Shown piece after piece: positions 39,377-42,887 of a DNA stretch of 64,000 bases; position 1 is the first letter of the stretch; every line of letters begins with the position of its first letter. The notes below the pieces were generated by a model that was given only the letters and a program-made list of their open reading frames with translations, did no database searches and was not told the origin of the DNA. The position numbers and the translations under genes are program-made. Origin of the DNA: Larkinella rosea (GTDB lineage Bacteria > Bacteroidota > Bacteroidia > Cytophagales > Spirosomataceae); contig NZ_RQJO01000008.1 in assembly GCF_003858635.1 (NCBI RefSeq), positions 1,054,001-1,118,000 on the forward strand. Direction: 5' to 3'.

Positions 39377-41056
39377 ATGAAACACCGTTTCCTTCCGGTT
39401 ATTCTGGCCGGGATGTTGACCAGTTGCTTTGCCGTTGTTTTCAATGCCGTTGCGCAAACGCCACCCGCCGGAACCTACCCGTCGGCAGCCCAACTTTCAT
39501 CCCGCTTAAAGGCAATTACCAGTCGCTACGGTACGCTGACGAATCTCCAGTCGATTGGGAAATCACCCGGCGGAAAAGACGTCTGGCTGTTGACAGTCGG
39601 TCGTGGAAAAACTGCCCAGAAACCAGCCATTGCCCTCGTAGCCGGTCTGAACGGCACGCACCTGGCCGGAACCGAACTGGCCGTTCAACTGGCCGAAAAA
39701 CTCCTTGCAGCTTCCAATCAGGATAGCGTAGCGCGGTTGCTCGACAGCAAGACGTTTTATATTTTCCCCAGCGTCAATCCCGACGCGCAGGAGCAGTTTG
39801 TGGCCAAACCGCGCTACGAACGGAGCGGTAACGGAACCGATACCGACGACGACCGCGACGGCCGTTTGAACGAAGATCCGTTTGAAGACCTGAACAAGGA
39901 CGGCCTGATCACGCAAATCCGGGTGGAAGACCCGACCGGCACCTTTATTCCCAGCAAAGAAGACCCGCGCGTGTTGGTCAAAGCCGATCCGGCCAAAGCG
40001 GAAACCGGTCGTTATCTGGTGATTTCGGAAGGAACCGACAACGACAAGGATGGCGCTTTCAACGAAGACGGCGCGGGCGGTGTAGCGCTGGACAAAAACT
40101 TTACGTTCGATTACCCCATTTTCGTACCGGGTTCGGGCGAAATGGCGGTTTCGGAACCGGAAGACCGGGCGCTGCTCGATTTTCTGTACAAAGCCCCGAA
40201 CGTCTATGCGGTTTTTACGTTCAGCCCCCACAATAACCTCTCGGAAGCACCGAAATTCGATCGAACGAAAACCACCAAACGCATCATTACCGGCGTCATG
40301 GAGAAAGACGCCACCGTCGGCGATCAGGTTTCGAAACTTTATAACAGCCAGACGGCGCTGAAAGATGCTCCACCGATGCCGCCGACCAAGGGTAATTTTG
40401 TCCAAACCGCTTATTACCATTACGGCCGATTCAGTTTTTCGACGCCGGGCTGGTGGGTTCCCAAAGCTGCGGCTCCGGCGGATACCACGAAGGGAAAAAC
40501 CGCTCCCAAACCGTCGGATAATGACGATGTCAAATTCCTGAAATGGGCCGATGTCCATAAAGTCAGCGATGTTTTTGTCGACTGGAAACCCATCGAACAC
40601 CCCGATTTCCCGGGCCATAAAGCGGAAGTGGGCGGTATTTCGCCCTTTGCCCGACTGAATCCGCCGGTTTCGTTTCTGAACGATATCGCCGATAAACACC
40701 TGAAATTCATGACGGCGTTTGTCCGTCAAATGCCCGTGATCGACGTAGTGAATCTGCGGACGGAAGCGTTGTCGGGTGGTCTGACGCGCGTCACGGCGCA
40801 GGTGATCAACCGGGGTTTGCTGCCGACGGGCTCGGAAATCGGCGACCGGGTGCGGTTTGTGCCGAAGATGAAAATCGAACTCAAAACCAGTACGGGTCAG
40901 ACCGTTGTCTCGGGCCGGAAGCGGATTCTGCGGAGCCCGATGGCGGCTGGCGAGTCGATGGAAGTCACCTTCCTCGTCTCCGGCACCGGACGCGCCAACC
41001 TCGAAGCCGGTAACGCCATGACTGGCACCAAATCAATCGACATAACCCTCAAATAA
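39377..41056 (+). CDS. M14 carboxypeptidase-like protein with a degenerate active site
   Basis: 559 aa with a signal peptide (ending FNAVAQ). It aligns with the next gene along its length: the substrate domain, DxDxDG calcium-type loops (DTDDDRDGRLNEDPF, DLNKDGLI, DNDKDGAFNED) and a C-terminal beta domain (GLTRVTAQVINRGLLPTGSE). The zinc motif HxxE is replaced: the aligned segment is LNGTHLAGTE with Asn92 and His95 where the paralogue has His110 and Glu113. The third ligand His is kept (FSPHNN, H285). The Arg of the NR motif is Phe, and the catalytic Glu is Pro357 (FSTPGWW). It is therefore probably a catalytically dead partner or binding protein. Confidence 0.8.
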   Translation: MKHRFLPVILAGMLTSCFAVVFNAVAQTPPAGTYPSAAQLSSRLKAITSRYGTLTNLQSIGKSPGGKDVWLLTVGRGKTAQKPAIALVAGLNGTHLAGTELAVQLAEKLLAASNQDSVARLLDSKTFYIFPSVNPDAQEQFVAKPRYERSGNGTDTDDDRDGRLNEDPFEDLNKDGLITQIRVEDPTGTFIPSKEDPRVLVKADPAKAETGRYLVISEGTDNDKDGAFNEDGAGGVALDKNFTFDYPIFVPGSGEMAVSEPEDRALLDFLYKAPNVYAVFTFSPHNNLSEAPKFDRTKTTKRIITGVMEKDATVGDQVSKLYNSQTALKDAPPMPPTKGNFVQTAYYHYGRFSFSTPGWWVPKAAAPADTTKGKTAPKPSDNDDVKFLKWADVHKVSDVFVDWKPIEHPDFPGHKAEVGGISPFARLNPPVSFLNDIADKHLKFMTAFVRQMPVIDVVNLRTEALSGGLTRVTAQVINRGLLPTGSEIGDRVRFVPKMKIELKTSTGQTVVSGRKRILRSPMAAGESMEVTFLVSGTGRANLEAGNAMTGTKSIDITLK

Positions 41057-41060
41057 ACCC

Positions 41061-41142
41061 CTGATCACCTCTGATTTACCCTGATAAACCCTGAGATATA
41101 ATTGTTACACAGAGTTTATCAGGGTAAATCAGAGGTGATCAG
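41061..41142. repeat. Perfect 28-bp hairpin between the two M14 genes
   Basis: Arms 41061-41088 and 41115-41142 are exact inverse copies with a 26-nt loop. The left arm has an internal 10-bp rhythm, successive decamers starting CTGAT (CTGATCACCT, CTGATTTACC, CTGATAAACC). There is no U-tract. It separates two same-strand genes, so it may attenuate transcription or stabilise the upstream message. Confidence 0.7.
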
Positions 41143-41153
41143 AGAAACAAGAT

Positions 41154-42887
41154 ATGAAAAAGCTATTTGTACTTTTCTGTATACTTTTATCGACCACGAC
41201 TTTCGCGCAGCAGAAACCGGCTCAGAACGATGATTTGACCGGTTTACGGGCTGTGGGTTCGCCCGCCAATCCGAAGGTGCCGATGCGCTGGAACCATTAC
41301 AACGACTACGCCGGGATTACGAAGTTTTGCCAGGATATGGCGAAAGCGCATCCCAACCTCGTCAAGATCGAGTCGATGGGCAAAACGTTTCAGGGCCGCG
41401 ATTTGTGGGTGCTGGTGGTCAGTGATTTCAAAACCGGGAACGTCGAGCGCAAACCCGGTTTTTACATCGACGGCAACATTCACTCGAATGAGTTACAAGG
41501 CTCGGAAATCGCGATGTATACGGCCTGGTACTTGGCCGAAAATTTTGGTACGGTCGAGTTTACGACGCAGTTGCTGAAAGACAAGGTGTTTTACATTGCG
41601 CCCAGCATCAACCTCGACGCGCGGGAGGATTTCATCAAGAATCCGAACAATCCCAACTCGCCCCGCTCGGGGATGATGCCGTTTGACGACGACGGCGACG
41701 GTGAAATTGACGAGGACAAATACGATGATCTGGACGGCGATGGGAACATCGTGCTGATGCGCCGGAAAACCCCACTGGGCCGCATGAAACAGGACCCGAA
41801 CGACCCGACGCGCATGATTCCGGCCAAAGCCGACGAACCGGGCGAATACGAAATTCTGGGGTACGAAGGCATCGATAACGACGGCGACGGGCAGGTGAAC
41901 GAAGATCTGGCCGGACGTTACGACCCCAACCGCGACTGGGCCTGGAACTGGCAACCCGATTACGTGCAGAACGGCGCGCTTTTCTACCCCGGAACCTTGC
42001 CCGAAACGCAGGCCATCAAGAAGTTCATTATCAACCATCCGAACATCGCCGGAGCGCAGAGTTACCACAATTACGGCGGTATGTTTCTGCGCGGGCCGGG
42101 CGCCGAAGAGGATCAGCAATTTTACAATCCAAGCGATGTGGCGGTGTATGATGTGATCGGGAAAACCGGTGAGAAAATCATTCCCGGTTACAATTACTTC
42201 GTGATTTACAAAGACTTGTATACGGTTTATGGTGGGGAAATCGACTGGCTGGCGCTGGGTCGGGGCGTGTTTACGTTCTCGACGGAATTGATGACGCCGT
42301 ATCTGCTGTTCCGGCAAAAACCAACTCAGAACGATGAGTTTAACCAGTTTGGCAAGTATTTGCTGTTCGACGATGCCTATGTGACCTGGAAACCGTTCAA
42401 ACATCCACAGTACGGCGACATCGAAATCGGCGGTCCGAAGAAGAATTACATCCGAAACCACCCCGGTTTTATGCTGGAAGAAGACGCCCACCGCAACATG
42501 TCGTTCACGCTTTTTCACGCCCATCAGACACCGAAGCTGGATGTGCAATCCATTACGTCAAAACCGCTCGGGAATGGGCTGACCGAAGTGACGGCCATCG
42601 TGATCAACCAGCGCGTGATTCCCACGCATTCATCGCACGACATCAAATACAAAATCGAACGGCCCGATTACATTACGCTGAAAGGAGCCAGTCCGCTGGC
42701 GGCCATGATTGTGGAAAACGCCGATCTGAACATCACGCGGGAGCAAAAAAACAATCCGGCCACGATTGAAGTCCCGAACATTCCGGGCATGGGCTACGTG
42801 CAGGTTCGCTGGATTGTGAAAGGGAGCGGAAAATACACGGTTTCGGTCGACAGCCGGAAGGGGGGCGTGGTGGAGAAGACGCAGTAA
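41154..42887 (+). CDS. M14-family zinc carboxypeptidase, active-site residues intact
   Basis: 577 aa with a signal peptide (MKKLFVLFCILLSTTTFAQ). Zinc ligands: His110 and Glu113 in GNIHSNELQGSE, and His305 in SYHNYGG. DPNRDWAWNW supplies the Asn-Arg pair, and Glu378 in FSTELMTP is the catalytic base. Two calcium-type acidic loops (DDDGDGEIDEDKYDDLDGDG, DNDGDGQVNED) are inserted in the catalytic domain, and a C-terminal beta-sandwich follows. It removes C-terminal residues from peptides, probably in the periplasm or outside the cell. It is preceded by the degenerate paralogue and a long hairpin. Confidence 0.85.
   Translation: MKKLFVLFCILLSTTTFAQQKPAQNDDLTGLRAVGSPANPKVPMRWNHYNDYAGITKFCQDMAKAHPNLVKIESMGKTFQGRDLWVLVVSDFKTGNVERKPGFYIDGNIHSNELQGSEIAMYTAWYLAENFGTVEFTTQLLKDKVFYIAPSINLDAREDFIKNPNNPNSPRSGMMPFDDDGDGEIDEDKYDDLDGDGNIVLMRRKTPLGRMKQDPNDPTRMIPAKADEPGEYEILGYEGIDNDGDGQVNEDLAGRYDPNRDWAWNWQPDYVQNGALFYPGTLPETQAIKKFIINHPNIAGAQSYHNYGGMFLRGPGAEEDQQFYNPSDVAVYDVIGKTGEKIIPGYNYFVIYKDLYTVYGGEIDWLALGRGVFTFSTELMTPYLLFRQKPTQNDEFNQFGKYLLFDDAYVTWKPFKHPQYGDIEIGGPKKNYIRNHPGFMLEEDAHRNMSFTLFHAHQTPKLDVQSITSKPLGNGLTEVTAIVINQRVIPTHSSHDIKYKIERPDYITLKGASPLAAMIVENADLNITREQKNNPATIEVPNIPGMGYVQVRWIVKGSGKYTVSVDSRKGGVVEKTQ

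Follow-up and report, generated by a model that had tools for sequence, protein, structure and literature searches.

A peptidase M14 homologue without a catalytic site is encoded next to an intact M14 paralogue in Larkinella rosea and other Bacteroidota

A stretch of 64,000 nt of the Larkinella rosea genome (RefSeq assembly GCF_003858635.1, contig NZ_RQJO01000008.1, positions 1,054,001 to 1,118,000 of the forward strand), referred to below as the window, contains two neighbouring plus-strand open reading frames (ORFs), 97 nt apart in the ORF list of the window, which both encode exported-type proteins of the M14 carboxypeptidase family. The second protein, P2, has the three zinc ligands and the catalytic Glu of an active M14 peptidase (His110, Glu113, His305 and Glu378), and the first, P1, has lost all four. 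It is strongly supported that P1 is not a decaying copy and that its site was lost long ago and in connection with the active neighbour, because none of the P1s compared contains the HxxE zinc motif or the catalytic Glu (Glu270 in bovine carboxypeptidase A), the ratio of nonsynonymous to synonymous substitution rates (dN/dS) is low, and P1 is linked to P2 almost without exception. P1 is probably a non-catalytic partner of P2 that was retained after an old duplication of an M14 gene.

Both proteins are members of the family. Matches to Peptidase_M14 (PF00246) score 67.9 bits for P1 and 117.4 bits for P2, with a cut-off of 21.6 bits, and Foldseek matched the predicted models best to M14 structures (E 3.2e-14 for P1 and 1.4e-18 for P2; mean predicted local distance difference test score, pLDDT, 88.2 and 86.4), in agreement with a carboxypeptidase fold. 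The adjoining M14 paralogues of the original prediction, which had been made from the sequence of the window, were thus recovered as described. As P1 passes the profile, it should be noted that an M14 profile match is no proof of a peptidase in Bacteroidota.

Conservation was evaluated in 80 P1 sequences, namely that of the window and 79 full-length P1s from the best 80 of 354 P1-profile hits; the loci were chosen by likeness to P1, and the two search patterns lie off the active site. The split P1 of locus L116 and an extra upstream M14 gene of locus L095 were left out before counting. Residue numbers of the site (His69, Glu72, Arg127, Arg145, His196 and Glu270) are those of bovine carboxypeptidase A, and the roles of the residues follow Table 2 of PMC11266112. 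The register between the two proteins was read from a joint MAFFT alignment of 190 rows and from hhalign of both family profiles (probability 100, 26% identity), which agree in placing His110 of P2 on Asn92 of P1, Glu113 on His95, Asn259-Arg260 on Asp239-Lys240, His305 on Ser283 and Glu378 on Pro357. Predicted secondary structure agrees with this register (a helix turn at P1 238-240 versus P2 258-260, and a strand at P1 276-282 versus a P2 strand from 298), and in a HMMER comparison with a 75-row P1 profile the zinc-ligand His of carboxypeptidase T falls on the Gly/Ser column 283; the second segment, to which this column belongs, is weak (12-14 bits). The residue before Arg145 is Asn144. Two further conservation alignments comprised 74 of the 79 P1s plus that of the window (A2), and 67 of the 79 P2s plus that of the window (A3).

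No zinc ligand and no Glu270 is present in its column in any of the 80 P1s. Column 92, opposite His69, holds Glu in 44 sequences, Asp in 26, Gln in 4, Ser in 3, Asn in 2 and Tyr in 1, and never His; column 95, opposite Glu72, holds His in 54, Gln in 12, Leu in 9, Tyr in 4 and Arg in 1, and never Glu; column 283, opposite His196, is Gly in 79 and Ser only in the window, and never His; and column 357, opposite Glu270, is Pro in 77, Gln in 2 and His in 1, and never Glu. The replacement of HxxE and of the catalytic Glu, which the original prediction had noticed in the window, is therefore common to the whole set, and the same holds for ten divergent proteins of the P1 type that were drawn from the phylum sample described below, none of which has a zinc ligand or Glu270 in its column (none of nine, when the one protein without the first two site columns is set aside). 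Two of its residue assignments did not survive the alignment. The third zinc ligand had been reported as kept, but the residue probably meant, His285, lies two positions past the ligand column and is His in only 6 of the 80 sequences. Likewise, Phe had been placed opposite the Arg of the NR motif, but this Arg, the carboxylate clamp Arg145, aligns with residue 240, which is Lys in 63 sequences, Arg in 15, Gln in 1 and Met in 1 (Lys/Arg in 78 of 80), and in the divergent proteins Arg in 9 and Met in 1. At the Arg145 position the charge has mostly been kept and the residue mostly changed. Arg127 was considered as a further retained residue, with P1 Arg149 and P2 Arg171 side by side in hhalign, and was dropped, as the stretch around it falls in an insertion of the alignment to procarboxypeptidase A.

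P1 is under constraint. Comparison of the window with four other Larkinella gave dN/dS values of 0.067-0.090 for P1 and 0.045-0.065 for P2, P1 is at least 500 amino acids long in 79 of the 80 loci, and Leu288, Tyr346 and Trp359 are invariant (80/80), with His348 present in 79. In draft genomes, P1 was found broken into two reading frames at L116:3-1596, at L129:2216-3864 and in genome G177, owing to either mutation or sequencing error.

The P1 gene is followed directly, on the same strand, by P2 in 79 of the 80 loci, and in the 80th (L123) the contig ends; in 4 of the 79 two-gene units the second protein also lacks zinc ligands. The gap from P1 to the first ATG of the P2 frame has a median of 12 nt and ranges from -4 to 242 nt, with an overlap in five of the 79 pairs. 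No other gene family is present in more than 11 of the 80 loci (ORFs of at least 150 amino acids, antisense frames over P1 or P2 aside), and the commonest one, with 11 loci, comes from Rufibacter and Sabulibacter. No frame fusing P1 and P2 is found among the matches listed, the longest open frame of which has 781 amino acids. According to the record names, the 80 carriers belong to Cytophagia (49), Flavobacteriia (13), Chitinophagia (5), Bacteroidia (3), Saprospiria (2), Sphingobacteriia (1) and Rhodothermia (1), with six unassigned.

Co-occurrence was determined in 395 evenly drawn Bacteroidota genomes, with strong P2 matches defined by an E of at most 1.1e-160. Such a match was found in 37 genomes, 36 of which also contain P1: 35 show it directly, and in G545 the C-terminal part of P1 lies at a contig edge. 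In the sole P2 genome without P1 (G356), the P2 frame opens at base 2 of its contig. Conversely, every one of the 36 P1 genomes has P2. The Fisher test, which ignores kinship, gave p 4e-48 (35 genomes with both, 2 with P2 only and 358 with neither). In the family of the window, the matches listed include a strong P1 match (best E below 1e-130) for at least 48 of the 222 genomes, each with an adjoining P2 match, and in its genus both genes occur in eight of nine genomes, the ninth having no match to this query.

The history of the pair was followed in an M14 tree of 80 rows (24 of the 80 loci, the pair of the window and 30 further rows), calculated with a quick method and midpoint rooting. The 25 named P1s lie on one side of a branch, and they do so again together with ten divergent P1-type rows (Shimodaira-Hasegawa-like approximate likelihood ratio test, SH-aLRT, 99 in the quick tree), with the P2s, divergent intact proteins, a family of about 640 amino acids and the extra gene of L095 on the opposite side. 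Because the P1s fall on one side, a single loss of the site in the ancestor of P1 would be the simplest reading; a position of P2 as the closest relative of P1 hinges on where the root is placed. The two genes also have mirrored trees. In FastTree phylogenies of 87 pairs (78 of the 80 loci plus nine divergent pairs, one of which, L132/L137, comes from two places of one genome), the P1 tree has 60 supported splits and the P2 tree 63; 48 of the P1 splits are shared with P2, 4 are in conflict, and the distances of P1 and P2 are correlated with r 0.84, compared with a maximum of 0.30 in 1000 permutations. In the 80-row tree, one row each of Emticicia, Saprospiraceae and Flavobacterium group contrary to taxonomy on both the P1 and the P2 side (support 97 and 97), which would fit joint transfer of the two genes.

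The joint inheritance of P1 and P2 suggests that the two function as a unit. Both genes would go back to an old duplication in a single group of exported M14 carboxypeptidases, after which P1 would have lost its general base and the ability to bind zinc and been retained as a non-catalytic partner, and P2 would have stayed a peptidase. One two-gene unit would make both proteins, which would probably be exported by Sec, and P1 would most likely assemble with P2, or with the substrate of P2, for positioning, selection or stabilisation. Since the metal and the base have been lost and a basic residue has been kept at position 145, P1 might bind a C-terminal carboxylate without cutting. A more specific version, to which we give a distinctly lower probability, is that P1 and P2 form an obligate M14 heteromer, equivalent to the alpha/beta pairs of M16B, in which carboxylate recognition would be shared with or passed to the metal-free P1 and P2 would cut. 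If so, M14 would have its first unit of this kind, spread across a bacterial phylum.

Several points weigh against a partnership of P1 and P2. One operon and shared inheritance would also fit two proteins of one pathway, and the earlier proposal that P1 works with the active protein is drawn from genomic association. Common descent and linkage by themselves would account for part of the mirroring of the trees, which were compared for the two linked genes only. The loci are the best 80 of 354 P1-profile hits, and weaker relatives of P1 are therefore under-sampled. The register at residue 240 was derived from alignments and predicted secondary structure. In genome G412, P1 and P2 lie on different contigs. 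Finally, zinc ligands have been lost in the P2 of four of the 79 loci (L076, L084 and L118 from Rufibacter, and L080 from Sabulibacter; all three ligands and the Glu are present in the other 75), and the P1-P2 unit of these loci is thus not a normal peptidase.

The invariable order of the genes would also suit a P1 that acts as a dedicated inhibitor or folding chaperone, made first and holding P2 in an inactive state in the periplasm, until it is exported or substrate arrives. P1 is upstream in all 79 loci showing both genes, and the co-occurrence in 36 of 37 P2 genomes would be expected of such a function, which we nevertheless regard as unlikely: P1 is no small inhibitor but a homologue of full length in which the former cleft is conserved, and it has been retained in the four loci with a dead-looking P2. 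Slightly less probable still is an independent binder of peptide, cell wall or matrix that shares only its regulation with P2. Conservation is somewhat higher in the region of the former site than in the remainder of P1 (3.20 versus 2.79 bits, a difference that random window sets reach in 4.2% of draws; the same test on P2 gave 3.74 versus 3.16 bits and 0.08% of draws), and eukaryotic M14 pseudopeptidases interact with collagens according to PMC11266112, but independence is at odds with the presence of P2 in all 36 P1 genomes of the 395-genome sample.

It is improbable that P1 has retained or gained another catalytic activity with a metal held by other residues, for example Glu/Asp92 together with His95 or His348. 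Column 92 is Glu or Asp in 70 of the 80 sequences, and the frequencies of His95 and His348 given above could be read in this way; however, the third-ligand column is Gly in nearly all P1s, 26 sequences have Gln, Leu, Tyr or Arg instead of His in column 95, which also varies in the divergent P1s, and of the His, Asp and Glu residues conserved to at least 95%, only His348 is near the former site columns in the linear sequence. Re-coordination of a metal by Glu/Asp92, His95 and His348 is unsupported by column conservation. A decaying copy, for which the lost site and the three split frames could be cited, can be dismissed in view of the low dN/dS, the preserved length and a loss common to several classes. 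The original prediction had likewise judged P1 not to be a decaying gene; this part of its interpretation holds, with an old loss tied to P2, and the two misassigned residues drop out of the argument.

The nearest working analogue of a partnership of P1 and P2 is the M16B peptidases, which, as described in PMC11266112, consist of homologous subunits, an inactive alpha subunit without the zinc motif and an active beta subunit (in the mitochondrial processing peptidase and in bacterial M16B), and are encoded by a two-gene operon in bacteria. They differ in family and zinc motif (M16, HxxEH), and the M16B dimer is known, whereas P1-P2 is known from genomic pairing alone. Within M14, catalysis has been lost, as in P1, in AEBP1/ACLP, CPXM1, CPXM2, domain III of CPD and Ecm14; the M14 pseudopeptidases taken here from PMC11266112 are eukaryotic. 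Table 2 of that source shows His69 retained in each of the five and a residue other than Arg at position 145, and Glu270 is replaced in four, CPXM1 keeping it. P1 is the reverse of these five, with all three zinc ligands and Glu270 gone and Lys/Arg at position 145, and a fixed active partner encoded alongside is, unlike for P1, not described for them in the portion of PMC11266112 drawn upon here. Among the open-licence PMC papers listed in literature searches, no title or opening of an abstract reports the pairing of a bacterial M14 pseudopeptidase with an active M14 protein. The solved M14 structures of carboxypeptidase T, domain II of carboxypeptidase D, carboxypeptidase M and procarboxypeptidase B rank with the best matches, by sequence or by fold, to P1 and P2. 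P1 differs from them in the loss of its site, and in the profile alignment most of the segment that carries the DxDxDG loops (profile 159 to 254) is unmatched in carboxypeptidase T (chain 121 to 144). A bacterial pseudopeptidase lineage under strong constraint and with a nearly fixed active partner offers a clean natural test of the effect of a dead sister on a live enzyme.

The other features which had been proposed for the two proteins were found in both. An N-terminal hydrophobic region of the signal-peptide type is present in the pair of the window and in 79/79 P1s and 77/79 P2s of the other loci, as judged by a hydropathy proxy only; loops of the DxDxDG type, which may bind calcium, were read from both sequences; and both predicted models have a beta-rich C-terminal region, corresponding to the proposed sandwich. 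NCBIfam contains no family matching P1 or P2 up to an E of 1. The coordinates are listed in Table 1.

Table 1. Features of the P1-P2 locus, in positions of the window
Feature	Position	Strand	Evidence
P1, pseudo-M14 protein, 559 amino acids, exported type	39377..41056 (stop codon included)	+	ORF, profile, conservation, model
P1 residues 92-95, Asn-Gly-Thr-His replacing HxxE	39650..39661	+	MAFFT, hhalign, conservation
P1 residues 157-176, DxDxDG-type loops, highly conserved	39845..39904	+	P1 conservation alignment
P1 residues 221-231, further DxDxDG-type loop	40037..40069	+	P1 conservation alignment
P1 residues 239-240, Asp-Lys, opposite Asn144-Arg145	40091..40096	+	MAFFT, hhalign, conservation
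P1 residue 283, Ser, third zinc ligand (His196) column	40223..40225	+	MAFFT, hhalign, HMMER, conservation
P1 residue 357, Pro, catalytic Glu270 column	40445..40447	+	MAFFT, hhalign, conservation
P2, M14 protein with intact zinc site, 577 amino acids, exported type	41154..42887 (stop codon included)	+	ORF, profile, conservation, model
P2 HSNE zinc motif, His110 and Glu113	41481..41492	+	conservation, MAFFT
P2 residues 178-197, DxDxDG-type loops	41685..41744	+	P2 conservation alignment
P2 NR motif, Asn259-Arg260	41928..41933	+	conservation, MAFFT
P2 third zinc ligand, His305	42066..42068	+	conservation, MAFFT, profile alignment
P2 catalytic Glu378	42285..42287	+	conservation, MAFFT, profile alignment

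Among the Rufibacter and Sabulibacter loci with a dead-looking P2, in which P1 and P2 are both still open and adjacent, all three zinc ligands are gone in the P2 of L118 (7650-9398). Two tandem P2-type genes were found downstream of P1 in L135 (508-2229 and 2253-3980) and L129 (3854-7361), and the first of those in L135 has Leu in the third zinc-ligand column, possibly a second, independent ligand loss. The extra gene of L095 (4150-5838), a third one of the M14 type, immediately precedes the pair; its site columns read His, Glu, His and Glu, and it has a long branch in the tree. The family of about 640 amino acids (L144-L148) is a separate M14-like family from five genomes of Spirosomataceae, the family of the window, with HxxE and Glu270 present, Asp in the third-ligand column and His replacing Asn144.

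The best named match to the P1 of the window in the genome scan was from Larkinella terrae (94% identical). The P1 of the window contains a lipobox-like Leu-Thr-Ser-Cys, and a similar one occurs in one of the 79 other P1s. Between P1 and P2 of the window (41061-41142) lies a 33-nt inverted repeat with 97% complementarity and a 16-nt spacer. This repeat is a copy of a dispersed palindromic element, which gave 26 match rows on five contigs of the 8.17-Mb host genome, many rows being opposite orientations of a single copy.

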